Shown here: positions 4,208 through 56,300 of the stretch, piece by piece
Layout: every line of letters begins with the position of its first letter
Position numbering within the stretch: the stretch's first letter is position 1
Source of the DNA: Branchiostoma lanceolatum
Taxonomy: Eukaryota; Chordata; Leptocardii; Amphioxiformes; Branchiostomatidae
Direction: 5' to 3'
NCBI RefSeq assembly: GCF_035083965.1
Contig: NC_089726.1
Coordinates: forward strand, 11,723,501 to 11,787,500
DNA length: 64,000 nt
Position numbers and translations under genes: made by a program
Notes under the pieces: generated by a model
Database searches by the model: none
Seen by the model: only the letters and a program-made list of their open reading frames with translations
What the model was told of the DNA's origin: nothing

Positions 4208-4765
4208 TTTTTCTGCAAGGTTACCTGTACCAGACAAGTCTCACTTGCATTGCAATGCTGGAAAAGGAGATTTTAGAAACTATGAATCAAATTGGTAACC
4301 ATTTATGAACTATTTCAATTATTAATAGCATACTCTGAAAACATTGCAGTTGGAAAATATGGAAAGCAAAGAACTTGTGTATTGGGCCCATCAACAAATA
4401 TTGCACATCTTTCTGCTGCAGGAATTCAAAATTCAATATACTTTCGTCTGGTAATAGAATTGACTAGTACTATTACAGCATTTACATGTATTTGGTGTCC
4501 AGTCTTAACCTTGAAGTTAACGGCCCAAGAACAATTTGTTTCTGCTTGACTCAGCGAAATTTTCATTGTATCAAATACTAAGTTACCGGTATTCAATTTT
4601 CATGCATGATTAGTGTTGTTAACTTGTAAATACACCATGGCTGTATGTCAGTGTTTTGCTTTAGTTTCGCTACTGTTTAGTTTAGGCGTGTTCAATTATG
4701 ACAACAATTCGATTACTGTCTGACATACGGAGCCAATTGTACCATCTGGGCCTTGTTTCAGAACC

Positions 4766-7700
4766 ATGGAGCATCTGAAAACAGCAACAGCAGCTCTGAA
4801 AGGACTTTTAGAGCTGGGATATCCACTGGAACTGCAAAGGGTAGTTGACTACTTGGAAAACTTGGACAGTAAGGATGAACTCATAGAGTTTGATGATGAA
4901 GACGCTCTGAGCAGTTTCTTACTGAAATATCCATCAATGTTCTGGGTTGAGGGGAGTAAAGTGTTTCCTGCTCAGATGAAACCTAAAGGGAAATTTAGGT
5001 CCTCACCTCAGACACAGTCACAGCAAAGTCATTCTAAAGTTCAGCCAGTGTCAGACAGCAATGACAAAGCAAGGCAACAGGAACAGAAAAGTGGTAAAGT
5101 TGAGGGAGATAAGAAGAAAAGCAGAGTCATTGGTGCTGATGACAATGTTGACCAAACCGCTAGGCTGGAGGAAGATGGCATCAAAGCTATAGCAGAAGTT
5201 TTGAAGAGGGAAGGACCCATGAGACTGAAAGCTTTGCTCAGATCTGTGCATGGGTTACCATCAGAGGTGAGATCATTTATTGGGAAAGACAAGGAAAGTG
5301 TCATTGAATTCATCCTGGAACATCCTGACATCTTTCTCATTGATGATGATGATATCGTGTTTCATGAAAGCACAGTGCACAAGGAGGCTGCGCAGCAATT
5401 TAAGTCGGTCTTGCAATCAAAAGGAAAGTTACCTGTCAACAAGCTAGCAGGCCACATCAGTGCTTTCAAGCACAAGACTGAAATTCTTTGGTTTATAGGT
5501 GGCAGTCCACCTGCTGTTGAGACATTCGTGAGAGGATATCCAAACACATTCAGAGTAGGTGACAGGGGAACTGTGAGTTTGATTAATACGAAGACCAAAC
5601 AACCCGCATCTGCCAGTACATGTTCAGGTGGAAAAAGCAAGACCACTAGCAATACTACAAAAGTGGCAGTAAAACTAAAAGTTCCACATAAGACGTCAGA
5701 GCAGCCCAAGCAGAACAAACTGCTACAAGAAGGAGTGAAACATTTCAAAGATGTCCTACAAATGAAAGGAAGTTTGCCCATCGAACGGCTGTTTGGACAT
5801 GTCAACCAGTGCAGGAATGAAGTTAAATGGGCAATAGGTACCACAGAGAATGAGGTGAAAGAATTCTTGAGTAATCATCCAGAGGTATTCAGTATTAGTA
5901 AAAAAGGCAATGTCCAGCTGGTAAGTTCCAAAGCAAAACAGCAACAGGTAGATCAAGGTAAAGACAAAGCGATGGCAACCAAAAGCATTTCAACTATAAA
6001 ATGTAGCACCAAGCCTACCAGTGTGCCTTCTGGAGTCACAAATAGCTTGCAAGAAGCAAAACTAGAAAATAAAACCGAGAAGACAATTGATTACTTCAAG
6101 GCAATCTTGTCAAAAAAAGGCCCATCAACCATCCATGTACTCAGCACTTACTTTGGTCAATGTGGTGAAGACATCAGGATGCATGTTGGGAGCACCAAGG
6201 AAGGATTAACTAAATTCTTGAAGGAACATCCACAGATGTTTAAGATAGATGCCCACCAGATAGTGCATCTCAACGATAAAACTTCCAGCAATGACTTGTG
6301 CAGTCCATGTAGGGATGGAGGAATTGGCAACAAATCAGATTCCAGACAAAATGTTGCAGGAAACTCGATTGACGTTTGTAAGCAAAAACCAACCATGGAG
6401 ACAACAAGTGAGCATCGCTATGACCAAATACTTAATATAGATCATGCTTCTGAAAGAGTCAGTCTCAAGGAGGCAAATAATGTGCAGGAGACAGAACCAG
6501 ATGTCCTGCCTAACTCTGCTGATGGAGTGCAACAGAAGCAATCCACACAGCTAACAGTGGAAGAGGAAGTGAAAAGGACAGATTGTCCAATAGACAAACC
6601 AGGAATAAATACTGATGTTAGTGAGGCTGAAGACAACTGTAAGCGCCAACTTGTACCCACCTCAGATGCTGCCATCAGTGCTAATGACAGGGACACAGCA
6701 GAAGTGGGTATTGATAATGTGTCTGACCCATCATCCGTACCTTGTTCCTCAAACAGTAAAGAAGACAGTGATGTTGAGTGTGAAGTTCCAGATGGTGCTC
6801 AGAATGTGGAAGCACTTCTTGAAGAGGGAGTCGCACAGTTCATGAAGGTTTTAGAGAGGAAAGGGAGCAGTATATCACTTGGTACAGTACATGAGCATTT
6901 GAGCCAGTGTAGAGAGGAAGTCAGGAAGGCAATAAGTGGTGGCCCAGAGAAGACCAGAGCACTGTTCCTGAGATTTCCAAGTCATTTCTACATTGATGCC
7001 CATGATGATGTCCATCTCGTGTCCCAGCTAACACAGGAGTTCATTAATGCTGTCTCTGCTGCATTGGAAAGAAAAGGACCATTACATCTGGGAGAGCTGC
7101 TCAGTCATGTACACAGCAATGAACCCCAAACTTGGTGGTCATTCTTTGGAAGAAATAATGCAAGGACATCCTTGGAGCAACATCCAAATGTATTTGTCAT
7201 TGACAAAGATGACATTGTGTATCTTGTCAGTGCCATCAAGAATGAAGGTGTTCAGCACTTCAAAGATGTATTGGAGCTAAGGGGCAGTCTACACATCAAG
7301 GATATCTGTGGGCACAGTGGCCAATATAAGTGTGTGGAGGCTATGCTCAAGGTGATTGGTGGAAGCCCGTCGTCTGTTATGGATTTTGTGAAGGGTTTTC
7401 CCGAGGTGTTCAGTATTGATGATGGTGGTGTGGTGCATCTTACATCTGCCACTATAACCCAGGAGCAGGAGAGCAAGCTTGGGAAGGAGAACAGAGCTGA
7501 TGCAGTGGAAGAAGAGAGTGACCAGAAGATACCTGACCCTGTACCAGTCAACCTGCTGTACCAACTGCAGGAAAATGAGAGGGAAGATAGCAAATGTACC
7601 TCATCAACAACATCAGATCAGGCACCAGGTCAGACGAATAAGGAGGATATTTTGCAAAGAGGACTTAAGCTTGTAAAGGATCTCTTAAAGTCAGAAGGAA

Positions 7701-10700
7701 GCATGCCAGTTCAGAAGGTATTAGAGCATGTCAGCCAGTGTAGGAAAAAAGAGCTGTAGGTACAAAAAAGGCCAAGATGAAAACCTTCCTGAATCAGTAC
7801 CCAGAGGTTTTCCACATTGACCACAAAGACATTGTACATCTTGTAATTGACTATGCAAATGAAAAACAAGGAGTACAACACACGACAAACCAGACTGAAC
7901 GAAAGGCTTTGGCACACTTTAAAGAAATGTTGTCCAGGAAAGGTCTATCAGCCACTCAAACCATTAGTTCTTGCTACCACTCTTGTGATAAGGACATACA
8001 GGTGCATGTTGTAGGAAAGAAGAACCTGAAAAAATTCTTCATGGAGTATCCACTGATGTTTAAAGTGGATGGCAACAAGGTGATGTATCTCAATAACAAT
8101 AGATCATCTGAAATGATAGCCAATGCCGATGGTATGGCTACATTTTCACCATGTGAAGAACAAGATGCTCCAAATCAGAAATCTGAAACATACATCAACA
8201 TCAAGTGTGTCAAAGATATATTATCAGGTAAGCAAAGTTTGCCTCTTGCTCAGCTTTTCAAAGAACTGGCAGCTATGTTTCCACAGGAAAATTTCAAGAT
8301 AAAAGACCTGAGACTTTATCTGAAGAAATGTCCTGGCGTCTTTCATGTGAACAACAAGGATGTGGTTGAAGTGACGCCACCTACAAATGTCTTGGTAACT
8401 GTGCAAGAGGTGGCAGACAGGAGGTGCCGTGCAACCCTGGAGGATGGGAGTAAAGTCGATGTCTTCCTTGCACTGTACAGAGAGAGGATGGGGTTTGACT
8501 GTAACAGTCTTAAGTACCACCTGTCACCAGGAGATATCCTGCTGGTGGACACAGAACGTGACCAACCTGCTTGTAGCATGATGTGGGTAGCAAACAACAT
8601 CGCTGCAGTTTTCAAGTCACCTCTCGATATTGATGTTGTCAAACATGGACTGAAATTAGACATGCCTATGCCTTTTCTTCCTGCAACACCAACTGAAAGA
8701 TCTCCATCTGAGATCTGTGATGTTATAGTTAAACTTATTGCCTCTTCATTAGAGGTGATTTCACCACTGAAGGTTGATGTTCTCAGCTCTTGGATGAAGT
8801 TTTTAAACCCAGATGCAATTATGTACCTCAGGGAAAAGGGAGGACTGCTGCAGTTCTTACAAAGCCAGCCACTGATGTTTCAGGTTCAGGATGGGTGTGT
8901 TACTTTGTTGACAGGGAAAGGAGAGGCTGATAAGGAAAACAGTAAGTGTTTGGCATTTCCAGAAGCAAAATGTGTCATTGGAGAAGTTAAAACAGTTGGC
9001 AACAACACTGCAATCCTAGTCCTCCCCAGTAGGATGGAAGCTACATGTGAGCTACACCTTCTCACACACCACTCAAACAGCACCCTTCCCCTTACTATTG
9101 GAGACAGTGTAGTAGCTTATGTTGTTCCTTGCCCTGGCCAAGGCACAGTCTGTTGGCAGGTGATACAAGTCAAGCATATCATTGCTAAAGCTGCACCCAA
9201 GCAAATCCAAGATGGAAGAGCAGTTGTCACATGCAGCTGTCCAAATCTGAAGGAAGCTCTGCAGCAATGTACTAAAAACAATGACGTAGATGCTCTTCTG
9301 GCCTGGCACGAACTTCTCCGTAGCAAGACTTCAATCTCATGTAAAAACATTCCAGGCTATGTGCAGGAGCTACCCAAGCAAGTAAGGAAGTACACATTAC
9401 AGAAAGGAGGTCCTTTCGGTTTCTTGGAACAGTATCCTACACTGTTCCATGTTGACCGTCTCAAAGTTGAAGTTAGTCTTGCACAGTGTAAGCAAAACAG
9501 GAGTATGTTAGACCCCCTCAATAATGCATTCATCAATGGTGGAGGAAGTGAGCAACAGCAAGACCTAGATCAGGGCTTGGGGAGCCTAAAAGTTCAGAGT
9601 GATGGTAAAGAGAAGAATGAAACAGCTGACTGTGGAGTCACCATCTGTACTAAGGGAAATACTGCAGGTCAGAATCAAAAGGAACAAAAATTGTCTAACA
9701 GTACATGTACATCTGACAGGTATGTTACTGTGGTGAAGAATGTGCTCGCAGTGAAGGAAAACTTGTCTATTCTCCAGCTTGTTGATGTCTTACAGGCAAT
9801 GTTCCCAAAGGACACATTTGATGAGACTAGCATGAGACTTTTCCTGAAGAAACATCCTGATGTATTTCAAATCAACCTCCTAGGTGTGGTTAAGGAGATC
9901 CCACCCATGAATGCCCTCGCAATGGTAAATATTGTGTCCAGAAACTCGTGCCAAGCAACATTAGAAGATGGGAGTAGAGTGTATGTCCCCATTGCACTGT
10001 ACAGAGAGAGGATGGCAGTTGACTGTGACAGTCTTCAGGACCATCTGTCCTATGGAGATGTTCTACTGGTGGACACAGAACGTGGCAAGCGCTGGAGTAG
10101 CTTGAAGTGGTCAGCAAAGAACATAGCAGCAGTTTTCAAATCTTCTAGATCTCATAGTGCTGATGCTGAAATTACGAGAGGAAACCTACAAACACCCATG
10201 CCTTTTCTCCCTGCAACAACCATTGAAAGATCTCCATCTGAGATCTGTGATGCTATCACAAGACACATTGCTTTTTGTCTTGATGTAAGATCACCACTAA
10301 AGTTGGACAGTCTCAGCTGGGATATGAAGTACTTAAACCGTGATGCACGTATTTACCTCAGAGCACAAAAGGGACTCCTGTCCTTCCTGCAAACCCAACC
10401 ACAGAAGTTTCAGGTGGAGGAGGGAAATGTTAGTCTGGTGGGAAAACAGCCAATCACTCGTTGGCCATACAAGATAAGCGACAGTAGAGATGCAGCAGGA
10501 CACTTTCCACAAGAAGGAAATACCATTATAGGAGATACCTTTGCTGATATTGGCATGAGTATGTACAGTGAAGACATTTCTACTCCAGCTGCTAAATCAA
10601 CGGAAATGGAGCCTACTGGTGACACCACTGACCATGGCCAGTTGATACCATCTGAAGCAAAATGTGTTATTGGAGAAGTTAAAGCGATTGACAGTAACAT

Positions 10701-13700
10701 GGTTCATCTCCAACTTCCTAAAGGTCAAGAAGCTGACCTCAACCTCACCATCGTACAGGATTCAATCAACACATCTTGTCTCAGTGTTGGGGACTGTGTG
10801 GTAGCCTATGTTGTGCCTGCTCCTGACCAAAGTGAGATCCCCTGGGTGGTGTCAAAAGTCAAACACGTCATGGGGAAAGCTGCACCTGCCCAGATTCATG
10901 CTAAAACAGCAACAGCCACATGTGGTAGTCACCTTCTCAAGGAGGTACTTCAGCAGTGTGTTCTTGAGGAAGAAGTAGACACAGTACTTACCTGGCACCG
11001 ACTACTGAGTAAGAAGACTAAAGTTTTATTTGAAGAAGTTAAAGGTTGTTTGAAGGAACTATCCAAAAAAGCAAGAATGCACACCTTGGAGATAGGAACC
11101 CCCTGTGCGTTCTTGGAGCAGTATTCTACACTTTTCCATGTTGATAGAGCCATGCGGGAAGTAAGTCTTGTAGAATGTAGTCCAGTGAGTAGGGCAGTGT
11201 TCTCTGGTGGTGTGAAACGTATGAGGACTCCTCTAGTTCAGGTTGAAGGAAATACACAGCCCGTCACAGAGAAACCTGCTGTAGGCTTGATGAAGAGCCA
11301 GTCTGGTGTTGCTACCACTGACCAAGATGCTGTAGCATTCTTCAGAGGCAAGGTGCTAGAAAAAGGCCAGGTTTCCATCCAAGTACTCAGTTCCAGCTTT
11401 GGTTCTTGCCCAAGGGCCATCAGACGGCATGTAGGTAGCAGTCAGAAAGGCCTGGTAAGATTCTTACGGGACCATCCTGACACCTTCAGCCTAGATGAGG
11501 ATGAAATGGTGTGTAGTGTGAAGGATACCTTGCAGGCAGTAAAGGAACAGGAAAAAACAGATCACATTACCCACATAGATACAGCTGCACTACAGGGAGG
11601 ATATGAGCTTGCTACCAATGCACAAGAAGACAGAAATGATTTGTTAGAGCAAGATATCTCAAGAAGCATTTGCCATAATTGGTTTAATCCTCCAAAGTCA
11701 CATGACTCTGAGGTGAAACACACTGTGGATCAAATAGATCCAGTGGAAAATCAAGAGGAGACAGATGAAGAGGTAGATCCAGTCGATGTGGAGAGAGAAA
11801 CATTGGAACTTATTTATGACTTGGTTCAGAGATGTGGAGAGATTTCCATCTGTACACTTCAGGGTTATATCAATCTGCTTGGTGAGGACAAACAAGAATG
11901 TATTAAGGACAGAGGAGGGCTTTTATGTTTCCTTGAGCATGACCAAATATTCAAGATAGATCATGTCTCTGAAGGCATCAGTCTGAAGAAGGTACAGGAG
12001 ACAGAACCAGATTCTAACTCTGCTGACAATGAGCAAGAGCACCAGTCTACAGAGGCAATAATTGTAAAAGGGGAAGTGGAAAAGACAGATGAACCATCTA
12101 AGAATGCTGGTAGTTCTGACATTGAAAACAAACAGGAGAACCAACATATACCTATCAGAGAACATGGAGATGACACTGGTACTTCATTGCTGACAAACAG
12201 CATTAGAACAGAAGATAAACATGATGATGTGGATGTCAGCACAGTTGTGACACCCTCAGAGTTGGTTACAAGTGAGACAAATGTTGTCATTGCCGTTTCA
12301 CCAGTCCAGACTTTGAGGACATTACCTGCACCTGACCTGAATCAACAGGACCAAGTAAGTTGTAGTAGCTCAACAGCTGTCCCAACTGCAACTGTGCATC
12401 CAATGTCTGTCACCAATGACAGCAGTGTACCAAGCACCAGTGGTACTGAAAATGGCCATGATGGTAGGCCTGTTGGTGCCTTCAGTCATGACCTGAGTAC
12501 AGAATCCAGATTGAATACTATACCTGTGCAGATAGAGGAGACTGGAACTGTAGCACAAGTCAGTCAAAGCAGCACAGTTGAGGACACAAATGCTTTGCTT
12601 CCAAGCTCAGCTGAGAGATCTGCAGACTCGAGCCAAGGCACACAGGACCAAACACAAGCTGGGACCGGGAGCACATCAGTACCAGTACAGGGAAGACCCC
12701 TGCATCTGCTAGTGGGAGAAGATGGGACACGTGTCTGGGTAAATTCTGGGCAACAGGTACATTCTTGTGTTTTCAAATCATATCAAGCAGTGTAAATGCA
12801 TTTCCAATAATTTGTGTTGATATTAGTTTTTCTGACATTGAACCAAACAAACAAATGTCAAACAATTGTAAGATTTCTTTTCATGACAGCCATTTTTGAA
12901 GTGGTCACTATAACTACCTTTAGAACTACAGTAATTTATCACAGCTTGTTAGAAAGTTTGACATGTGAATCTTGTAGTGTGAATATATTTTGTGTAACAG
13001 CCATTGTTGTGATCATTATCATTCAGGACATGCAGCCGCTTGCTGTTTTCCCAAAGGAGGGCATTGTACCAGTGGCCAACCCCCCTGGACAACCTGATGA
13101 CTTCACATTACTGCTGCCCATGTTCAAGGACAACCTCAGACCTATCCAGGACAACCTGGTGGAAGTGGAGATGGATATTGGGAGGATTCCTATTGCTAGG
13201 TCAGATTGTATATTTAGGCTTAAGTGTTATTTTGATTGAAAAACAAACTGAGAGTGGCTTTAAATCACTGATTTTTCTTGATGTGTTAGAATGCATTGTG
13301 CCTATACACTTGTGAGTTTCCTATGAATGCTGATTTTTCTGAAATGCATCACCCAGATATTACAGCCCAGAGAGTCCATGTCTCCTGGCTGCCATCAGAC
13401 TGAGTGAGCAGACTCTGACCAGAGAAACCTTAGAAACCATCCTGTTTGCCCTGCCTCTGGAGAGGTCTGCCATTGGTCAGGGGAGAGTTCTACTCAGGGG
13501 CTCACTCCACTGGATCAGGTAACTTATATTCAAACGCCTGTTAAAGGCCATTATGTTCACTACCGGTATCTTTTAATGCACTTGTCTTAGACTTGGTAAT
13601 TGTGGATTGTAAATGAGTATAACATAGACATATAGATGTTTCACACTTATCAAGAAGAGTTGTGGTGACCTGACCATGGTGTGCTTGGCCAATTTGGGGA

Positions 13701-15388
13701 CATTACCTTCTCTTCCATCACTTGAAGTTGTTAAGTCAACAACAGCTATGGTTTCAGCACCATGCAGCGGGCTTCACTTGCTCCAACTATCTATCTCTGT
13801 ATACATGTATAGAAATACATCTACATGTACATATGCTTTTTTCATGTCAGAGGTTTTTGTGCTAGTTACATATATAGACCTTAAACTAAAGCAGAAGATG
13901 TCATCAAATAGCAAATCTATTGAACCCTTCTGCAGCACTCTGAAGAATAGTTTGGGTGAGGTGGTTGGGCTGACCCTGCGGAGAGGTCAGGCAGTGCCTG
14001 GCTGTCTGGACCTGTTGTGGGACGTGGTGACGTCAGGCACATCCACACTCATCGTTGGACGGCCCTGCAGTGGGAAGACCACCCTGCTGAGGGAGTGGGC
14101 CCGAGTACTGAGCGATGTCTGCTACAGGAGGGTCATTGTGGTGGACTCACTGAATGAGGTACACATGAAAATGTTGTGCAAAATGTGTAAGATTTATTTT
14201 CTTAAACTATTTAACTGGCTCAGTTGAAATTTGGCATAGACATGGGTTTGATGTACGACTACAAAATAATTCACATTGTCGTTTTTTTTCAACAGAACAT
14301 GGAAACTAGCAATGTTCTTGGGAATATGAAAACATGTAATTTTGTTGATGCACACCATATCTAGTCCCAGACATTGATTGGTTATGTTCCAATCATCCTG
14401 ACAGCTATCTTGTGTATTTGCAGATTGCTGGTGGAGACGACATCCCACATCCAGGTATAGGAGGTGCCAGGAGGGTTCAGGTGAGGTCAACAATCCTGTC
14501 AGGTATTGTGGTGTGATGGTTGTGTCCAATCATATGTGTGTATCTAGAGATGAAAGTTTTATTCTTTAACAATGAGTTGCTCATAGGACAACATATGGTT
14601 TTGCATGTCATCATTGCTAAAGGAGATCTTGTTCATGACTCCAGGTGCACAACAGGTGTGAGCAGGTGTCCCAGCTGCAGACAGCTGCAAGGAACCACTC
14701 CCCTGACTGCATCATTGTAGATGAAGTACAGACACAGGAGGAGGTTACTGCACTACAGGCCATCAGACTTACAGGTACATCTTAATAAGTTAGACAAATA
14801 AAGAATGCTTTGTAGTGCTAATATCTGTCTTACATTTACAATGCATGTTTGTTCAGACCTCCAGTCTGGAAAGAAAGCTGAAATTCCCAAAATGTTAAAA
14901 AACAGAAAATAATCTGGATCTAATTTTTTTTCAGTCTTCTTAAACACTGACTCAACATATGTACATTACAACACTATCGGGTAGTATACTAGTATATCAG
15001 AAATATAAGTTTGAACCTTCCAGATTTTGACATAATTTTGTATGTTGTGTGACCCTTATAACCCTTTGTTCCAGGCATACAGGTGGTAGCCGGGGTCTGT
15101 GCAGGCTGTCTGACTGACCTTCTACACAACAGTGTGATGAGAGGACTTCTGGGGCTGTCTGATCCACCCTCCTCTATCTCAGCACCACCAGGTGTGAGTC
15201 AGCAGCCTCTCACATTCCCACAGACCCTGCCTGTGTTTCAGGCTGCCGTGACAATCCACAACAGAGACACTGTGTCGGTTTACTCTGACATTGCTTCTTT
15301 TGTGAGTGTGTGGTTATTAGAAGGAAGGTTTCCTCTTGCACAGCACAGGAAGAGGGTTGTCACAAGGGACAGGGAGACAGAACTGTAG
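4766..15388 (+). CDS. Giant winged-helix/OB-repeat protein with C-terminal Ycf45/SpoIIIAA-like P-loop ATPase (copy A), one frame break
   Basis: Not a named gene I recognise. Exons: 4766-12756, 13027-13199, 13357-13518, 13936-14158, 14424-14480, 14645-14774, 15075-15388; all phases agree except one break at 7744-7756. The start is MEHLKTATAALKGLLELGYP, matched by copy B. About ten 65-residue repeats follow (to about 8095), each with the pattern hhKGxh...hG...IGGS...FhxxxPxhFxID...VhLhs. This resembles the winged-helix-like domain of Egalitarian-type and LOTUS proteins (from memory, uncertain). Next come two large modules mixing winged-helix-like and OB/S1-like segments (GD.VVAYVVP, LSPGDILLVDTE), two more repeats, and an acidic low-complexity linker. 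The C-terminal ATPase has Walker A GRPCSGKTT, the motif GGDDIPHPGIGGARR, Walker B CIIVDE and a GIQVVAGVCAG segment. These match Ycf45/SpoIIIAA ATPases in order and spacing. An RNA- or DNA-linked role is inference. Confidence 0.75.
8179..9492 (+). repeat. First copy of the internal OB/winged-helix module in copy A
   Basis: The segment encodes, in order: a variant winged helix ending YLKKCPGVFHVNNKDVVEV; an OB-like stretch with ATLEDGSKVDV and LSPGDILLVDTE; a winged helix beginning SPSEICDVI; a second OB-like stretch AKCVIGEVK...GDSVVAYVVP; and a winged helix ending FLEQYPTLFHVD. The same order returns at 9718-11178, so this is an internal tandem duplication of about 1.4 kb. Copy B has a single module. 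Confidence 0.8.
9718..11178 (+). repeat. Second copy of the internal OB/winged-helix module in copy A
   Basis: It repeats the 8179-9492 module: FLKKHPDVFQIN, ATLEDGSRVYV, LSYGDVLLVDTE, SPSEICDAI, AKCVIGEVKAID, GDCVVAYVVPAPD, FLEQYSTLFHVD. Between SPSEIC and the second OB stretch it has an extra segment of about 60 residues (10450-10650). Its last third is almost identical to the single module of copy B, closer than either is to the first module of copy A. Confidence 0.8.
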
Positions 15389-18336: not shown

Positions 18337-21300
18337 ATGAAGGACATCAAAACAGCAACAACAGTCCTGAAAGCAGTTGTGGAGCTTGGATATCCACTGG
18401 AACTGTCAGGGGTAATTGACTACTTGGAAAACTTGGACAGTAGGGATGAACTTATGCAATTTGACAATGAAGAGACTCTGTGCAGCTTCTTGAAGAAGTT
18501 TCCATCAATGTTCTGGGTTGAGGGGAGTCAAGTTTTCCCTTCACAGATGAAACCTAAAGGGGGGCAGAGGAGCTCAAACAATTCACGGTTGCCTCAAAGT
18601 CATCCAGTAGTTCAGCCAGTGTCAGATGGTAGTGATGAGAGAAGGCAGCAAAACCAGCCAATGGGTGAAGCTGAGGAGCAAGATGAGGACAACACCATTG
18701 CTACCAATGATGTTCTTCAAATACAGCCTTCTTCTACAACTGAAGCTAGTGGTGATACTATATTAGCTACACAGTCTTCTGGGAAGAGGACAATGACAAA
18801 GCAGAGGCAAGCAATGACAGCATAGAATTGAATAGGTCATTAGCATCTCAATCTGCCAGCAGTGATGGCACCATATGTACAGATGTGAGCACTATTGATG
18901 CAGCTGTCCTATCAACTGAACCTCACTCCTCAAGCAGTGAAGAAGACAGTGTTGTTGAATGTGATATTGAGGCACTTCTCAAAGAGGGGGCTGCACACAT
19001 TGTAGATACTTTAGAGCAAAAAGGGAGCATGCCACTTGGTAGAATACATGGCCATGTAAACCAGTGCAGGGAGGAAGTCAGAAAGGCAATAGGTGGTGGT
19101 CCAGAAAAGGCCAGAGCACTGTTCTTGAAATTTCCAGCCTATTTCTTCATTGATGATTATGATGATGTTCATCTTACATCCAAGCTTACTCAGGAGTGTG
19201 CCAAAGCTGTCTCAGCTACTTTGGAAAGGAAAGGACCTCTACAACTTGGAGAACTTGTCAGTCACATATGTCAACCAACACTTACCTCATTCTTTAAGAG
19301 AAATGATCCAAAAGCATTCTTGGGGCACCATTCAAAGATATTTGTCATCAATGAATATGACAACATGGTTTATCTTGTCAGTGCCATTAAAGAAGAAGGT
19401 GTAAAGCACTTCAAGAAGATCTTGGAGCTAAAAGGTAGTCTACACATTGAAAACCTATATGGGCACAGTAGCCAATACAAGTATGTGGATGCTCTGCTCA
19501 AGGTGATTGGTGGAAGCCTGTCATCAGTAATGGATTTCTTGAAGGGCTTTCCTAAGGTGTTCAGCATTGATGATGGTGGCGTGGTACATCTTACATCTGC
19601 TACTACAACTCAGTCACAGGGAAACAGGCTTGGAACAGAAAAAAGAACTTATGCAATGGTAGTAGAGACTGGCCAGAAGATACAATCAAGTGCACCAACC
19701 AGGAGTCAACTGCAAGAAAACAAATCGGGAAAGGGTAAAGGTGCCTCATCAACAGCAGTAGTCCAGAATTCAGAGAAGACAGCACAAAAGGCTAACAAGG
19801 AAACTATTCTGCTTGAAGGAGTCAAGCATTTCAAGCAGGTCTTGGAGTCGAAAGGAAGCATGCCTGTTCAGAATATCTTTGGTCATGTCAACCAGTGTAG
19901 AGATAAAGTGAAATGGTCTATTGGTAGCACAGCTGACAAGGTGAAAAAATTCTTACTCAGGTATCCGGACGTCTTTCACATTGACAAGAAGATGATTGTA
20001 CATCTTGTACATAGCAGAGCAAATGAGCAACAAGAACGACACAAGACAAACTTTAACCAGCTGCAGATTGAACAAAAGGCTTTGGCACACTTTAAGGGAA
20101 TGCTGTCCAGGAAAGGCCCATCAACCACTCATGTGCTCAGCAGTTGCTTCAGTTCTTGTGGTGAAGATATCAGGAGGCATGTTGGGAACAGTAAAGAAGG
20201 ATTGACAGAGTTCTTCATGAAACATCCACAGATATTCAAAATGGATGACAATAATGTTGTATACCTCAAGGGCACCAGTTCATCAAGAAGTAACGTCATT
20301 CAGCCTCAAAGGTGGACAAGCTGTGATACCTTGGCTGTACCAACTGACACTGTGTCACTAAAGGTTCTCAGCAAGTTTGGTGGCAGTACACCAGATATCA
20401 GGAGTATTGTACATGGAGGAAGTCTTCTTCAAGTAAAAGAGGTCCAGGACAAACCTAGCCAACAGCCACAGGAAGAGTGTAAAGACAAGAAAGAAACAGG
20501 TGATGACACATCTACAAGTAAGGTTGTAAAGACTCAAAGGTGGGCCAGCTGTGACACCTTAGCTGTACCAACAGTGATTCCAAAGGTTCTCAGCAAGTAC
20601 GGTGGCAGTACACCAGATGTCAGAAGTACTGTGTGTGGAGGAAGACTTCAGCAAGCAAAAGAGTTCCAGGACAAACCTAGCCAGCAGCCACAGAAAGATT
20701 GTAAAGACAAGAATGGAACAGATGAAAACACATCTACAGGTAGATCTATGCCTTATCCTGAACGACAACATACCCCAGGTCAGAAGGCTGATTTTTGCAA
20801 AAACAGTTCAGACAAGGTATTCACTGCAGTGAAGGACATATTATCAGAAAAGGGATGTTTGCATCTTGTTCAGCTTGTAAAAAAGTTGAGCACCATATTT
20901 CCATATGAAAGGTTTGAGGTGAGTGAAGTGAGACTTTTTCTGAAGAAATGTCCAGATAATTTTCATGTGAACCAAGATATGGTTGAGGAACTTCCACCTA
21001 TGAATGTCCCTGCAATTGTAACAAAGATGTTCAGTAACAACAGCTGTTATGCAACATTGGAAGATACAAGTAGAGTATTTGTCTACAGAACTCTATACAG
21101 AGAGAGGTTGGGGGTTGACTGTGAAGGTCTTAAGGACCACCTGTCTCCTGGTGATATCCTACTGGTGGACACAGAACATGGCAAACCTGGGAGTAGTGTG
21201 AAGTGGACAGCAACAAACATTACAGCAGTTTTCAAGTCTTCTAAAAGAGTTGATGCTGACAAAAATGGAGTGAATCTGCAAACACCCATACCTTTCCTGC

Positions 21301-24300
21301 CTGCAACAACCATTGAAAGGTCTCCATCTGAGATCTGTAATGCCATTATGAAATTTGTGGCTTCTTTCCTTAAGGTACCTTTACCTGTGCAGGTTAAAGA
21401 TCTCAGCTCTAAGATTAAATACTTAAATCATGATGCAATTGTGTACCTCCGGGCAAGGGGAGGACTACTGCCCTTCTTGCAAAACCAACCACAATTGTTT
21501 CAGGTACTGGATGGGTGTGTTAGTTTGGTGGCAGGTAAAGGAGAGCTTGATGAAGGCACTAGTCAAAGTTTAACCTCTCCAGATGCAAAATGCACAATTG
21601 GAACAGTCAGTATGATTGCTAAGAATATTGCACATTTTCGCCTACCTGATGATAAGAAAGCTATAATTGACCTTTCAGATGCACATAATTCAATCAGCAC
21701 ATCTAGTCTCAGTGTTGGGGACTGTGTGGTAGCCTATGTTGTGCCTGCTCCTGACCAATGTGAGATCCCCTGGGTGGTGTCAAAAGTCAAACATGTTATG
21801 GGGAAAGCTGCACCTGCTGAGATTCATGCTAAAACTGCAACAGCCACATGTAGTAGTCACCGTCTCAAGGAGGTACTACAACAATGTGTTCTGGAGGAAG
21901 AAGTGGACACCGTACTTGGCTGGCATAAAGTACTGAGTAAAAAGCTTGAAATGTCATTTGAAAGCCTTGTGGGATGTTTTAATGACCTACCCAAAGAAGC
22001 ACAGAAGTATACATTGCAGGCAGGAGGCCCTCGTAAAGTCTTGGAGCAGTATCCTACACTTTTCCATTTTGACAATGTCAGAGGTACAGTATGTCTTGTA
22101 GAATGTAGTCCAATGGACAGGGAGGTGTTCAGATCAGATCAGATTGCGAAGAAGACTATTGCATACTTCCAGGCAATACTGACTAAGATGGGCCCCTCAA
22201 CATTAGGGCCACTACCTGGACAACACTTGAATCAAGAACAAGTAGTTTGTGATAGTTCAGGTCTCCCAACTGCAACAGTTCATCCAATGACTCCTCCAAG
22301 TGTCAACAACAATGTACCCTGTGCTGATGGTAGTAGTGATGATGTGTATACTCAAAGGGGCTCTATAGTCATGGATCAAAACGCTAAAGCTCTGCATTCA
22401 GCTCAACCCAATGTAACAGCCACTCATCATGTTGACCTGACTTCAGCATCCAGAGCTTTGCATACAGGGGTGCAAGAAGATCTAAAGGATGTCAGAATTG
22501 ACCCACAGGTCAGTCATACCAGCACAGCTGAGGACGGATATTCTTTGCCTCCAAGCTCAGTTGACATTTCTTCTGACTCAAGCCAAGGTCTACAGGGCAC
22601 AAAGAATAATGTCTGGGCTGGGAGCAACCCAAGTCTGGGACAGGGATGGCCTCTCCAACTTCTTGGGACAGAAGATGGGGCAGGTGTCTGGGCAGATTCC
22701 AGAAAGCAGGTAAATTCTTCCATATCTAAATTAGAATATATGTCCAACAGTCTTTTTTTGTATTGAAACACATCTTAACTCTTGAATTTTCTTTCCGACA
22801 TTTGGCCAAATGAAGAGAAAAAGAAAGAGAAACACACAAATTCATGGTACAGCATAGCAATTTGAAAAGTCTGAATTATTATTACAGCTTGTTAGAAAGT
22901 TTATGTACAATATTTTTTTACATGTATCTGACTTTGCTACATAGGATGAGCAGTCGCTTGAAGCTGTTTGCCAAACAAAGTTTGTTGTGCCCGGTGCCAA
23001 TGCTTCTGGATATGATGACTTCACATCACTGCTGCCCATGTTCAAGGACATCCTCAGACCTATCCAGGACAACCTGGTGGAAGTGGAGATGGATATTGGG
23101 AGGATTCCAATAGCTAGGTCAGATTGTATTCTTAAGATACATTTTTTTTTAAAGCAAACTGAAAGTGACTTTAAGCACTAGGTAAATTTTCTCGCTGTCT
23201 TAATAGAACTTAGAATACGACTTTGAATTCCCATTGCATGGTTATTTTGCTTCCCCAGATATTACAACCCGCAGAGTCCTCTCCTGGCTGCCATCAGACT
23301 GAGTGAGCAGACTCTGACCAGAGAAACCTTAGAAACCATCCTGTTTGCCCTGCCTCTGGAGAGGTCTGCCATTGGTCAGGGGAGAGTTCTACTCAGGGGC
23401 TCACTGCACTGGATCAGGTAACTTATTTTCAAATTTCTGTTAAAGGTCATTATGTTCACTACCGGTAACTTTGAATGCACTTGTATTAGACTTGGTAATT
23501 GTGGATTGTAAATGAGTATAACATAGAAATTTAGATGTTCACACTTATCAAGAAGAGTAGGGGTGACATGACCATGCTGTGCTTGGCCAATTTGGGGACA
23601 ATACTTTCTCTTCCATCACTTGAAGTTGTTTAGTAAACAACAGCTATGGTTTCAGCACCATGCAGTGGGCTTCACTTGCTCCAACTATCTATCTATCTCT
23701 ATATATAGAAATTATCTGCATGTACATATGCTTTTTTCATGTCAGAAGTTTTTGTGCTAGTTACAAAAAATGTATATAAACCTTAAACTAAAGTAGAGGA
23801 AAATGTCATCAAGGAGCAAATTTATTGGACCCTTCTGCAGCACACTGAAGAACAGTTTGGGTGAGGTAGTTGGGCTGACCCTGCGGAGAGGTCAGGCAGT
23901 GCCTGGCTGTCTGGACCTGTTGTGGGACGTGGTGACATCAGGCACATCCACACTCATCGTTGGACGGCCCTGCAGTGGGAAGACCACCCTGCTGAGGGAG
24001 TGGGCCCGAGTACTGAGCGATGTCTGCTACAGGAGGGTCATTGTGGTAGACACACTGAATGAGGTACGTATTGGAAAGTCATGATGAGAGAGACACTTTA
24101 TTCTTTTGAAATATGTATAATAACTTGTTCCATTAAGATTTGGCACACACACACTTGTTAACATGACCCCAAGAAGTGGATTTGGTGTATGATTTTATGA
24201 TCCAGTTTTAAGAAAATGATGGAAGTGATATTGCTTTTGGGAATAAGATCAACTCATTCCTGACAGCTTTACTGTGTATTTGCAGATTGCTGGTGGAGAC

Positions 24301-25253
24301 GACATCCCACATCCAGGTATAGGAGGTGCCAGGAGGGTTCAGGTGAGGTCAACAATCCTGTCAGGTATTGTGGTGTGATGGTTGTGTCCAAGTCTGGGAT
24401 ATCTAAATATTGAGCTCAACTTTAAAACTTCTGTTCTTTAAGAATTCTGTCTTACCGGGGTAACACATCTTGTATGTCGTCATTGTTCATTGCTCCAGGT
24501 GCACAACAGGTGTGAGCAGGTGTCCCAGCTGCAGACAGCTGCGAGGAACCACTCCCCTGACTGCATCATTGTGGATGAAGTACAGACACAGGAGGAGGTT
24601 ACTGCACTACAGGCCATCAGACTTACAGGTACATGTTTTAAAAGAGAAACAAATATGATTTTGTAGAATGCCTGTAGTCCTAATGTCAATGTATCTGCCT
24701 GACCTTGTGTGTTCATTAGATTGACAATCTGGAAAAAAAGTTGACAAATCTGGATCAAATTTTCTTTCATCACTTAAGCACTGACTCAATACATGTACAT
24801 CAGAGCACTTTACTCCTGACACTTTATTTATTTATTGTCATTATTAAGATTCCCAGAATCGTTTAATCCTTCCAAATTTTGACATATAGACCATAATTTT
24901 GTATGTTGTGTGACAGATTATAACCCTTAATTGTTCCAGGCATACAGGTGGTAGCCGGGGTCTGTGCAGGCTGTCTGCCAGACCTTCTACACAACAGTGT
25001 GATGAGAGGACTTCTGGGGCTGTCTGATCCACCTTCCTCTACCTCAGCACCACTAGGTGTGAGTCAGCAGCCTCTCACATTCCCACAGACCCTGCCTGTG
25101 TTTCAGGCTGCCGTGACAATCCACAATAGAGAGACCGTGTCGGTTTACCCTGACATTGCTTCGTTTGTAAGGGTGTGGTTATTAGAAGGAAGGTTTCCTC
25201 TTGCACAGCACAGAAAGAGGGTTGTCACAAGGGACAGGGAGACAGAACTGTAG
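18337..25253 (+). CDS. Tandem paralogue of the winged-helix/OB-repeat ATPase gene (copy B), one frame break
   Basis: Exons: 18337-22709, 22945-23117, 23259-23417, 23841-24063, 24286-24342, 24499-24628, 24940-25253. Sizes match copy A except the third (159 against 162) and the first. The start is MKDIKTATTVLKAVVELGYP. Compared with copy A, the block holding repeats 2-5 is missing; repeats 6-10 follow the first repeat, then one OB/winged-helix module instead of two, then the acidic linker. The ATPase keeps Walker A GRPCSGKTT, GGDDIPHPGIGGARR and CIIVDE, so it is probably catalytically competent if translated. The reading frame changes between about 18755 and 18822 (frame of 18337 ends at a stop at 18823-18825; the downstream frame is open from about 18756). 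This is a mutation, an assembly error or an unrecognised short intron. Total about 1,800 codons. Confidence 0.75.
20296..20741 (+). repeat. Two-copy in-frame tandem repeat in copy B, unit about 225 bp
   Basis: Unit 1 (20296-20522) encodes VIQPQRWTSCDTLAVPT, VLSKFGGSTPDIRS and QDKPSQQPQEECKDKK. Unit 2 (20526-20741) encodes VVKTQRWASCDTLAVPT, VLSKYGGSTPDVRS and QDKPSQQPQKDCKDKN. I found no counterpart in copy A at the same position, between the tenth repeat and the variant winged helix. It is a recent copy-B-specific expansion of a hydrophilic linker. Confidence 0.85.
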
Positions 25254-50300: not shown

Positions 50301-53300
50301 AGGCAATGCTATGACAAAAATATTGTGGAACAGACTCTGTATTAGTACCACTTGCAGTTAGGTTTATTGGTTACCAAAGGAATGGGAATTATTTTAATTT
50401 TCTTTCTCATGTTCATTATGATGTACATTCCTGTGTTTCAGACAAGCACTACTGGACCCAGGGGTTCACTGTTGCCACGGCTACAGTGGAGGAAAGTGTT
50501 CCTCTATTCCTGGCAGACCTAGCTAACAACATCTTTGTGTGTGGAAAGTCTCTGAACCTGCTCAGACTCTGCTGTCCTGGGGTGGGTCACACTCTCAAAT
50601 CAACATTCACAAATGAACTTTGTGTTTCTTTCTGTACAGTTTAGCTTTACTTTCCAAAGGTAGTGAAACAAGGCATCAAACTTGTTAGCTAAACTTTGGT
50701 TCCCGTGTACTACAGGCAGAGGTTGTCAAAATTTGTCTGCTGATGTCTTCTGTCTGAAATTTTGAAGTACACATGTATTAGATTCTGTAGCAGCTCTTCC
50801 AGTAATGGTCCCCACCCCCTACAGCATCACTTGTGCACAAGAGATGTCCCTGTGCCACGGCTGGCCCTGACCTTCTCCATGGAGGACCTGTCTAACATTG
50901 AGGAGCGGTGTGCGGAGTATGTGGGGAAAATGGACGGGATAGCTAGACGTAAGACTGTGTCCAGCGAAGAAATGGTGAGTTCTCATGAACAGACAAGCTC
51001 ACAAACTAAACAGTAAACTTTCATATTTTCTCTCCCCCATTGTTGTATCTTAGACTCTAGTAAAGAGTGTTAAGGATTGATAGAAACATTCAAAATAATT
51101 TGTGAAGGCTACATTTACTGAGATAGTTTCCTTGCTACAGGAGAGAAGAGCAGTCCAGGCCAGACAGGACCTGGTGGTGCTCGCCAGACAGACAGCCTCC
51201 AAGGAGATAGACCGCATCCAGAGTAAGTACTGTGGGGATAGACCAAATTACCAGGAGGTACTATGTTAAATACACTGGGTACACAGTGGCTGCCTTGGGA
51301 AACAGGCTGGATAATCATATATCCAGGCACAATGAGAAATGGACTGCACACTGTCAGAACAATAGTCTTAAATTTTCATGACTCAGTAATCCTCTTTATC
51401 AACATATCTCCCATTGTATCTATTCATAAGGCTGTATCTCTGTGTGACGACCTCCTGATCTCTAACTCTGCACACTTCAGGTGAGAGACAGAAGGCACTG
51501 GAAGCTGCTGATGCCAAGAAGAGACAACAGTTCCAGGAACTGAAAGAGCAGATGGAACAGGATCTTCAGGTACAGAACAGCTCTAGAGTCAACTCTGCTC
51601 TTCTCAGTGACAAAACTATAGTTTATGATAAATGTATGTAGTGCACATGGATTTTCTCATATCCAGCAGCAATGCAACATTTAGGACATAGATATGAATA
51701 TGGGACGATATGTTACATGTATGATGTACATGTATCAGCAGATGCTAATGTAGGTATCACATTTTGTGTCATCTTTTGGTTGTAAGTACAGTCAATCTGC
51801 CTAAGAAGACCACTAATAAAATCTGGTCTTAGTGGACAAGTGGGTTCTAAATGCTTGTATTAATGGGAAAGATATCTAAGGGACTACCAAGTAGTGGTCA
51901 CATTGGCCACGTAGTTGTTATGTAGAAGTGGTACAAATTTGACTATGTTTGTGACAACAAAAAGCGTGCCTACCATGATGTATTAATTGCGTTGTTCCCT
52001 CAGCGACGCGCCTCAGAGAAGGAGAAGGAGGCAGAGGAAGATGTGGCGTTTATCGAGGGGCTGAAGAGGAGGGAGAGTGAGGAGGCAGAGGCTGAGGCTG
52101 AGCTGGAGAGACAAGCCAGGTGAGGAGGACCTGATATATCTACACTAGTCGATTACTTTAACCCTTGCAGGCTTTTTGCTCATTGTTTGAATTCAGTACA
52201 TTATATTTGATATAGCTTTGCCCGTATTGATGTGGTTAAAATGCATACTCATAGAAGCTTGCGCTGCTATCTTAGGCTCTGTTACAAGCAAGAAATGTCT
52301 AACCTTGGCGTCAATAACAATTGTCCTCACCATTTTTATTATCATGTGTCATACAGGGAAGAGGTAGTGGAGTACTATGCCAAGTTAGGTGAAGAAGCAG
52401 CCAAGAGAGAGCAGAGAGCTCTGTGGAAGATCAGGCGGCATCGCCTAGACCAGGCACGTCTCAACTTCTTACTCAACGAGGAGAAGAATCTCAAGAAAGG
52501 AGCTGGGCCAAGCTCTGATGGAGAGGAAGGGAGAGGAACTGGCAGTCCGAATGTTGCAGATCAAACAGGAATGCTGGTTTCATTCGCTGAGAGTCCACAA
52601 CCAAGTGCAGAGACAGGAAAGCTCATTTCATTCATAGCAGAGCCATCAGAACCACCCACAGTTTTACATTCCATCCCAGAAGGGAGGAATCTGCTAGACT
52701 TGTCTATTGAAGAATTCCTGCCCAAGTCCGAGCCAACAGGAGGAGAAACACAGGAAGATGCAAGTGCAGCTAAACTTGACGAAGTATTGTTAGAAATAGG
52801 CTCAGACTTGCCTCATAAAGAAAGAAAGCCCCACCCTTCAGACACCTCTGTACCGGTTCAGACGAAGCCAGGCATTGCTGTCCACCAGCATGGACACCCA
52901 TCTCAGTCTTCTGTCTTCAGTGAGGAAGAGATAACTTCACCTGCAGGTGGAGACGGGATAAAGAGAAGTCATCCTTCTGACTCTGTGTTTACTGCTGATG
53001 GAGGGATGGGGGAGGGAGATGAGGGGAAGGCCAGTGTACAGGTGGGGAAACATGGGCACCACTCTGACTCTGTCTTCACTGCTGGTGGGGAAATGAAGGA
53101 GGGAGAGAGTCACAAGGCACTGATCAGGGTAAGGAAGCACGGGCACCACTCAGAGTCAGTCTTGACAATGGGGGGGGAAGTTAAGGAAGACACTCAGAAG
53201 AGGATAGTTAGACGAGGGGAACATGGGCATCATTCTGACTCCGCCTTTAGCACCGGAGGGGAGATAAGAGAGGCAGACGTGAAGAAGCCTTTGATAAGAG

Positions 53301-56300
53301 TGGGGCAGCATGGCCATGCCTCTGACTCTGTGGTGGGAGACTTGATTTCTGGAGAGCAAGACGAAAACAGTACAAGACTGGTGACAAGAAGCCAACATGG
53401 CCATCCGTCCGATTTGTCTGCAGGGCCGGACACTGCTAGACCGCAGAGAAACAAACATGGGCATGCATCTGACATGTCTCAAGTGCCAGATGCTGGAAGA
53501 CCAAGGAGAAGCCAGCATTGCCATGCATCAGAGTCTGCTGCAAAGGACATTCTCTATCCTACAGAAGATCGAGAACCTGATAGCAGAACCAAACATGGAG
53601 TCAGAGGGAAGATTCCGCATGGGCATTCCTCTGACTCCACAGTAGAGGGAATACTGTATGAGGAGGCCATAGATTCCACCTGGGTGGTCAAGAGGTCGAG
53701 GTTTAAGGAGAGGAACGTCCATGGTCACCACTCTGACTCCAGTGTGCAGAGGCTGCTGTACCCACAGGAGAAAGCAGACAGTGATGCGCAAAAAGGTAAG
53801 CAGAAGTCACATTTCTGGCATGTGGGCATTACTGTAGTTAAGTCTCTTCATACAGTAATACAAGACTGCAAGGGTCAGATACTTGTACTCGTTATATTAT
53901 GATATTACAAACATACATGTAAGTAATCCTATCTTATCATTGTCCAGGTTTATCTTGATTGTCTTTTCTTTAAAAAAAATACATTTCCCTCTATTGATCC
54001 AAAACTAGAATATTTTACTCTTTGGAGTAGATTTTTGTACTGATTGTTGTACTAAAAAGCATATAACTCATTTCCTATTGTTTGTTCTCCTTTCTCCCCA
54101 AAAGTATCTAAAGAGGGAGGCACAGTTTCTGCCAATATAGCAAAGAAGGTGTGGGCAGATCAGCAGGTGGAACCACTGCCAGACAAGTTTGATATGCTGG
54201 GTAAATATTCACTTTGGGGTCACAAATGATTGTACATTGGGTTATTCATGTACATATAGAACCTTGAGGGGGTGACACCATGGTAGTCAGAATGAAACCG
54301 TAGGAGGTAGACAATGATTTGATACATTTGTAGATTTTTTATTACTTAATATTAGAATGAAATGGACTTGAATGTGACAGTGAAAATTTTTGATTTAATG
54401 GAATGGCAACCCGTACATATACATGTAAACAGAATTTCTAGAGAAGTATTTCTGAGATCCAATATTTATTTTGATTACTTGATTATTTATGAAGCAATGG
54501 TTTGTTGACATTAAGTTATGATTAAAAAGGTGATCTGCAATCAGCTGTTTTATTATTTACAACTGTTTCTTTCTTCAATTTGAACACAGATAACCCACCA
54601 TCTGTTGATCTGCTGGGAAACCTTGGTGTGATACCGTACACCATGTTTGGTGACTATGGTTGTGGTGGCAGTGATGAGGTGGACAGTGTGGACATCGTGT
54701 CCCTCCCTGTACTCATCAAGCGCTCCATCACAAGTCCCCTCACTGCTCAGTAAGTCTACAGTCTTACTCGGACATTGTAAGAATGTTGGTGAGGTCTGCG
54801 ACCTTAATTTTAACAGTAATATGTCTACTTCATATTCTATAATGTACTTGTATCCAGTATTTGTTTATTAAAAAAAAAATGAAACAGAAGAAAAATTCAA
54901 ACATTCACAATCCGAGAAAATCCATACGTTTACTCTTTTGGACACAATATCGAGAAGAAACAACTAAAAAATGAGTTAATTTCAAGACATGTAAGATAAT
55001 CTCCAAGAAGATCTATCGGTGGCAAAGACAGTATCCAAAGGGCCATAGCAATTTTATTGGCCAATTAACCTGGATACGGTCTTTACCAATGATAGGTCTG
55101 CTTGGAGATTTATGTAATGCTCATTTTTAATTTCAAATCAGATACCAAATATTAAGTATCAAAGGAATGTAGAAATTGTATTGCAGATTTGGGTACCTTA
55201 GAAACTTTGTAAAAATTATAACATGTTTCATCTTGTAGGATCACTCTGGTGAATAAGGCCATAGTAGATTACTTCATTGTGGAACTGAAGGTACAGCGCC
55301 ACTTTAAAGCCCTGCGGACATATTTACTCATGGAGGATGGGGAGTTTGGGCATGCTTTATCTGACCAGCTTTTTGATAAGGTTGGTTTTGCATTTTGTAC
55401 TGTTTTGATGTTGATTGGTTGGTTCATTGGTTTGGATAAAGACATGGTTTGTTCAATGCTTAGTGGCCAGCTTTCATAAGGAGATTAGTATTTCATAAAT
55501 TTTCTCTATCCCTTAGTCTATTTGACAGTTGGAGCTCCACAGAAGATCTGGCAACCAGTTTTCTCCACCCTTCTCAGTGTTCTTCTTCATTTTTCACTTA
55601 ATGTCATGCCAGTCCAGTCTCTGATATCAGCCTCCCAATTTTTTCTTCTTCCTAGTACTTGAACGGATCCCCGCATAGTTTTGGCTAGTTAGTCCCAATG
55701 ACTGTGACTCGAGGCCGTACCACTTCAGTTTCCCTTTCTTTACTGTGGTTAAGAGTTGGATGACTTATTACAGATTAGTTCATGATGAACACATCTGATG
55801 TACTGTTTACTTGTTGGCTCCCTTAGCTTGCCCAGGGCCTGTCCCCACAAGAGTTGCTGTCCCCCCTGGTGTTGAACAGTGTGTTGACCCGAGCCATCCA
55901 GACCTCAATCAACAGAGACTCTGACTACACGGCAAACTTCAGCTTTGCTCTCAAGTGGCTGCCAGAACACTTCAAGCTCAATGGTCAGTAGAATCTGACT
56001 GTGTTTGTGACAAGCATTTCATGAGGATTACATATTTCAGGGTTGTTAGTGCATTATTGATGTGAGAGATTAAAAACATGGCATTATTTTTTTTCAGCTC
56101 ATGACACACTGGATTGCCTCGAACTTCGTTACAAGGTATTTAAAATTTCAATCTCTAAGTTTCATGTTAAGGCTGATGTCTTCACCTTTCAATAACGACA
56201 TTGCAGACCAATTTTTGTATCAATTGTACATATCTTGTTATTAGCTGTCCTACGTTAGTCTATCCAATGATGAATTATCTGAATTACTAACCCCGCCCGC

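Follow-up and report, generated by a model that had tools for sequence, protein, structure and literature searches.

The window analysed here, a stretch of 64,000 nucleotides of the lancelet Branchiostoma lanceolatum (contig NC_089726.1, positions 11,723,501 to 11,787,500 of the forward strand), carries two tandem copies of a gene in which a long run of predicted RNA-binding modules is followed, at the C-terminal end, by an ATPase domain of the Ycf45/SpoIIIAA type; we are nearly certain both of these domains and of their fusion. The gene copies lie on the forward strand of the window, whose own numbering is used throughout. Copy 1 opens with a long frame (4766-7756) encoding eight winged helices of the Egalitarian type and the opening half of another, winged helix 9, supported by nine repeat matches, by the Pfam model PF23713 (WH_Egal; 1.3e-86, 285.6 bits over 8 stretches) and by a phmmer match to Drosophila Egalitarian in the PDB (3.4e-8). 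Its large exon (7744-12756, with a GT donor at 12757) adds the rest of winged helix 9, nine more winged-helix matches, OB-like modules and a low-complexity linker, and is matched by PF23713 (3.2e-50, 168.9 bits over 7 stretches), PF24812 (1.7e-10) and ten repeat matches including the split one; both PF23713 scores exceed the gathering cut-off. Two open reading frames, 4724-7759 and 7744-12795, share the bases 7744-7759 without being in frame with each other, and this frame break divides winged helix 9 between them. At that point the length difference between the two copies, judged by eye, is not divisible by three. Copy 2 (18337-25253) begins with an N-terminal winged-helix frame (18337-18822; custom repeat-profile match at 18355-18537; PF23713 19.2 bits, below the cut-off of 27), which overlaps the next frame from 18756, so that an apparent frame break is found in the N-terminal half of each copy; in copy 2 (18756-18822) an intron is possible at this place. 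The large exon that follows (18756-22709, with a GT donor after 22709) encodes further winged helices (PF23713, 3.7e-64 over 7 stretches; PF24812, 4.4e-15; both scanned to 22763) and one module of alternating domains, winged helix-OB-winged helix-OB-winged helix, whose structure was predicted (20793-22130).

The ATPase tail is built in both copies from the same six exons, separated by five introns that are all of the GT..AG type. Joining the exons of copy 1 at these sites yields 352 residues and a single terminal stop codon. Splice sites and alignment with bacterial relatives assign the N-terminal domain of a Ycf45-type ATPase to exon 1 (13027-13199; EVEMDIGRIPIAR) and, for the rest of that domain, to exon 2 (13357-13518). 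Exon 3 (13936-14158) carries Walker A (GRPCSGKTT) along with the Asp-box stretch VDSLNE, exon 4 (14424-14480) encodes IAGGDDIPHPGIGGARRVQ, exon 5 (14645-14774) encodes RNHSPDCIIVDEV with the Walker B motif, and exon 6 (15075-15388) encodes GIQVVAGVCAG, with a cysteine at the position of the His-box histidine of relatives, then the C-terminal segment and the stop. The first-pass annotation of this DNA had placed the ATPase at 13936-15388. The exons in that interval stand, with all of the motifs quoted from them in frame and in the stated order in the four exons 13936-14158, 14424-14480, 14645-14774 and 15075-15388; the start does not, as matches to bacteria begin near residue 23 of the tail and run to about residue 341, and the Ycf45 homology begins in the two upstream exons that had been missed. 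The corresponding exons of copy 2 (22945-25253) are 22945-23117, 23259-23417, 23841-24063, 24286-24342, 24499-24628 and 24940-25253.

Our splice model of copy 1, built independently of the public records, is 2023 residues long and contains letter for letter the public, uncharacterized B. lanceolatum protein P0121 (2012 residues), whose model begins 3' of the frame break at 7744-7759. The length of about 3,000 residues first proposed holds only if that break is ignored. A second uncharacterized B. lanceolatum protein, P0001 (351 residues), is 100% identical to the ATPase tail and represents a short model with the tail only; the matches to P0001 and P0121 bear out the earlier view that the host is an animal. 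In its N-terminal part, P0122 reaches 80% against copy 1 across an alignment of 518 residues, which suggests a further gene copy or an allele.

The ATPase tail scores above the gathering cut-off of the Pfam family PF19568, Spore_III_AA (2e-13, 50.6 bits against a cut-off of 27), and below the equivalog cut-off of the NCBIfam model for SpoIIIAA, TIGR02858 (1.7e-19, 70.1 bits against 281.3). The domain therefore belongs to the Spore_III_AA family, in keeping with the initial Ycf45/SpoIIIAA assignment, but is not a SpoIIIAA equivalog. With SpoIIIAA of spore formers it shares the ATPase family and the order of Walker A, Asp box and Walker B; it differs in that the His box is gone and in that it ends a very long animal protein. 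Its identity to the Ycf45/R3H SpoIIIAA-like proteins of bacteria, cyanobacteria and plastids is 39-42% in the 118 non-animal matches listed and 33-43% in one alignment. Most bacterial and plastid Ycf45 matches listed also possess PF25516 and R3H domains, situated C-terminal to the ATPase in P0080 and P0177, whereas a Pfam search of the lancelet tail returned no match to either at E<=1. R3H is a nucleic-acid binder. In Ycf45-type proteins it sits at the opposite end from the winged-helix and OB-like arrays of the lancelet protein, which lie N-terminal of the ATPase; the pairing of this ATPase with a nucleic-acid-binding domain in both the bacterial and the animal proteins is a recurring theme, though no proof of function.

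In its predicted structure, the ATPase falls with the PilT/PilU/VirB11-type ATPases, the N-terminal domain of that fold included, and its best fold matches are PilU/PilT and an archaeal Holliday-junction helicase (5f4h), at 11-19% identity in these rows; the absence of the His box sets the lancelet ATPase apart from this group as well. A search of the PDB with the ATPase as a single sequence gave archaeal GspE at 0.0028 and FlaI at >0.1; with the ATPase alignment as a profile, two matches were obtained, both short and confined to the P-loop. Two unrelated assignments were considered and rejected. STAND or ABC NTPases, the families whose emergence as best structural match would have spoken against the first-pass annotation, yielded P-loop matches below cut-off and were absent from the 50 rows listed in each of two fold searches. 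For an anti-phage system, PADLOC gave weak, P-loop-sized matches to mad8 in all three proteins tried (best 2.8e-5), plus one more weak match in the urchin protein.

Walker A (GRPCSGKTT) and Walker B (CIIVDE) are present in both window copies, the Asp box (VDSLNEI or VDTLNEI) aligns with VDTSNEI of relatives, and all three motifs are retained in both copies and in the sea urchin Lytechinus. By order and spacing, the Asp-box glutamate would correspond to E180 of SpoIIIAA. The His-box signature TAHG, whose histidine is one of the catalytic residues usual in the family, occurs in 233 of 233 non-animal rows and in none of the 15 animal rows. Its histidine probably corresponds, given its spacing from Walker B, to H250 of SpoIIIAA, and the H250Y mutant is reported to resemble the deletion (PMC2703783). 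Some animal proteins depart further from the canonical motifs: the Walker A lysine is replaced by arginine in P0002 (B. floridae, isoform X4), and Walker B reads VDRI, with the glutamate gone, in the Diadema rows (P0131-P0133). The animal family may thus include both nucleotide-binding and dead members. Because the His box has been lost in the animal proteins compared, hydrolysis is probably slow or altered, and a nucleotide-gated RNA scaffold or sensor is to be expected over a strong motor.

The repeats N-terminal of the ATPase share their winged-helix family with Drosophila Egalitarian (PDB 9rvy) according to Pfam, to sequence comparison and, at modest Z scores, to the fold of their predicted structure. 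Repeats of both copies also score above the cut-off of PF24812, the TTC3-like winged helix, but the lancelet frames show no match to TPR or RING domains. Of the initial description of these repeats as Egalitarian- or LOTUS-type, the Egalitarian part is upheld; at the level of sequence the LOTUS part is not, no LOTUS/OST-HTH profile appearing among the Pfam matches at E<=1. Egalitarian domains are reported to resemble LOTUS by fold (PMC13186709), and any LOTUS kinship of the lancelet repeats would likewise be one of fold, by way of Egalitarian. The same study relates that, in RNA stem loops, neighbouring minor grooves are contacted by domains 1 and 2 of Egalitarian (Egl), and that two Egl molecules are required for RNA binding (PMC13186709). 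In Egl domain 2, serine 127, which makes base contacts, aligns within a G-H-x-S-Q stretch, itself a weak match when taken alone (i-Evalue 11), and the pattern [GE]-H-x-[SN]-Q is kept in six of the 29 repeat matches of the window. Egalitarian is portrayed there as combining three such domains with a 3'-5' exonuclease homology domain (PMC13186709), whereas the lancelet protein ends in an ATPase and no exonuclease family is found among the Pfam matches at E<=1 in the scanned exons. OB-like modules are predicted between the winged helices, as the first reading of the sequence had it, from the model of a copy-2 segment and its fold matches and, by alignment to that segment, at 8371-8619 and 8962-9189 of copy 1 (limits approximate).

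Annotated proteins of B. floridae, B. belcheri and two genera of sea urchins, Lytechinus and Diadema, show this fusion as well. In a long-query search with the lancelet tail as the region of interest, all ten significant matches were fused, eight of them lancelet records (those other than P0121 being 1,247-2,123 residues long) and two from Lytechinus. A search with an urchin sequence added two species of Diadema, one of which also has a 578-residue model matched by the ATPase alone. Both Pfam cut-offs (PF23713 and PF19568) are exceeded by two Lytechinus and two Diadema fusions, and the number of repeat matches, weak ones counted, ranges from 6 to 13 in five public lancelet proteins and from 2 to 5 in four urchin proteins. 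In P0002, which NCBI named 'ycf45-like', the winged-helix part from the N-terminus runs on into the linker's end and the tail. The matches listed, namely the best 120 of 486 and the best 120 of 3080 from protein searches that required shared 5-residue words and were limited in length, include no animals beyond lancelets and urchins, which such searches could easily miss. The recurrence of the fusion in several lancelets and urchins argues against a mis-joined gene model, and with it against the ATPase exons belonging to a separate gene, an outcome that the first-pass annotation had singled out as damaging to its proposal. We found no description of this fusion in the open-licence literature searched. 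In a 2009 survey, YCF45 is recorded for Phytophthora and Naegleria, protists that lack plastids, and not for Dictyostelium, Saccharomyces or Monosiga (PMC3087521).

The two copies have diverged unevenly. The ATPase core, with 8 synonymous and 2 non-synonymous differences between them, has a ratio of non-synonymous to synonymous substitution rates (dN/dS) of 0.086, a value that, like those below, rests on small numbers. The ratio is 0.17 when all ATPase exons are taken together, 0.32 for the tail as a whole and 0.46 in the part preceding the ATPase. Values for the arrays are 0.50 for the N-terminal winged helix, 0.275 for one winged-helix block and 0.55 for the winged-helix/OB modules, with 0.47 between two such modules within copy 1; all nine comparisons remain below 1. 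Tail exons 2-6 are 96-100% identical between the copies (13027-15388 versus 22945-25253), synonymous divergence in the ATPase exons being 0.06-0.08, whereas four of the five introns are 61-77% identical and intron 2 is 91% identical. This pattern likely reflects exon-biased homogenisation of the tail between the tandem copies.

Elsewhere in the window, we note a fucosyltransferase (61677-62871, + strand; PF17039, PF00852) with its N-terminal part in one frame and its C-terminal part in another that overlaps it, a 563-residue open frame with many HGHxSDS-like motif repeats and no Pfam match at E<=0.01 (52211-53902, + strand), and an exon matching the Triose-phosphate Transporter family PF03151 (28871-29443, - strand).

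As to the origin of the ATPase domain, a joint tree of 60 rows (10 animal, 10 other proteins and 40 of 80 loci) places the ten animal rows on one side of a branch (99/98*), and seven positions that are rare elsewhere are common to every lancelet and urchin row, against 0-1 such positions for seven control groups. Since these seven rare residues are shared along with the same fusion partner, one capture appears somewhat more likely than two for the lancelet and urchin ATPases. Several results weigh against it. In approximately unbiased (AU) tests, none of four constrained groupings was rejected: the animals with cyanobacteria and Closterium (p 0.562, the constrained tree outscoring the free one by 2.12 log units), the animals with Acidobacteriota and neighbours (p 0.191), and cyanobacteria and Closterium with just the lancelets (0.215) or just the urchins (0.253). 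The urchins, in a tree built without lancelets, fall within a supported set of 20 rows of the Chloroflexota/Thermomicrobiota type (98/98*); without urchins, the lancelets are placed next to Pseudomonadota, though weakly supported there (37/0 to 70/99). Since both animal branches are very long, any of these trees may be affected by long-branch attraction. The two Closterium sequences, P0194 and P0245, are green algal Ycf45-type proteins that group with cyanobacteria (94/96); P0194 shows no R3H or PF25516 match at E<=0.001. A fuller scenario would have a bacterial or plastid-type secretion-ATPase domain captured once in deuterostomes, before the lancelet-echinoderm split, its R3H domain replaced by an Egalitarian-type array and its His box dropped, converting what had been a motor into an ATP-gated ring for packaging, localising or sensing structured RNA. 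We regard this sequence of events as rather improbable, and lowered our estimate of it slightly because the urchins, analysed without lancelets, join the Chloroflexota/Thermomicrobiota set, a result that makes one shared capture less likely.

For the function of the protein we favour, at a probability of roughly 0.4, a nucleotide-gated, oligomerising RNA-binding scaffold or sensor over a strong motor. The combination of winged-helix arrays and OB-like modules with an ATPase from a ring-forming superfamily suggests, by analogy, multivalent RNA binding under nucleotide control. The ATPase domain, which probably descends from a bacterial or plastid-type Ycf45 protein whose R3H end is gone, would assemble into a ring upon ATP binding; the ring would multiply how avidly the winged-helix/OB arrays bind structured RNA, which would be let go when the nucleotide turns over or leaves. 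This mechanism we hold as tentatively, if not a little more so, and RNA as the ligand, ring assembly and gating are all postulated rather than observed. A competing reading makes the protein a true motor driven by ATP, in which a hexameric ring would pull, remodel or unwind RNA or DNA held by the arrays in the manner of PilT-family ATPases or of helicase 5f4h. The fold matches to PilU/PilT and to the archaeal helicase speak for such a motor, as do the three motifs intact in both window copies and in Lytechinus, but the His-box signature is missing from 15 of 15 animal rows, the Diadema rows lack the Walker B glutamate in addition, and H250Y in SpoIIIAA is reported to act like the deletion (PMC2703783). 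The 'ATP-driven machine' first envisaged is weakened by the loss of the His box across the animal rows, and we consider a motor doubtful.

That the arrays recognise foreign RNA, with ATP-dependent assembly triggering a response, is the premise of another reading, in which the protein would be a fast-evolving defence against viruses or mobile elements, acting as RNA sensor or as restriction factor. Variable repeat numbers among lancelet and urchin proteins, the tandem copies and an array dN/dS of 0.28-0.56 against 0.086 in the ATPase core are consistent with it; given that dN/dS stays below 1 in every comparison, that Pfam finds no known effector domain and that the PADLOC matches are weak and P-loop-sized, we judge it unlikely. 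A decaying domestication, with the ATPase domain a relic kept for folding or dimerisation and devoid of nucleotide-dependent function, would account for a His box gone throughout the animal rows, for Walker A or Walker B gone in some, and for frame breaks in both window copies. It is quite improbable in view of the long continuous proteins of B. floridae and B. belcheri and of an ATPase core that is the best-kept part compared, even if homogenisation may contribute to the contrast between its exons and most of its introns. The tail-only model P0001 beside the long model and the upstream frame breaks could, finally, be taken as signs of bacterial contamination or of an ATPase gene mis-joined to a neighbouring winged-helix gene. 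Such an artefact is hardly credible against five GT..AG introns in the tail of each copy, a fusion that recurs across several lancelets and in sea urchins, and a B. floridae X4 model that also links the winged-helix part to the linker end and tail.

Ycf45/SpoIIIAA ATPases have been studied in spore formers and are found in bacteria, cyanobacteria and plastids. What the lancelet locus adds is a fusion of known domain families that is conserved in two deuterostome groups: an animal Ycf45-type ATPase joined to the winged helix of the mRNA-localisation protein Egalitarian, and hence a concrete, testable protein in both amphioxus and sea urchins. The animal proteins also provide a natural experiment on the role of the His box. 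Should the single-capture scenario prove true, they would represent a ribonucleoprotein machine of a kind undescribed in animals.
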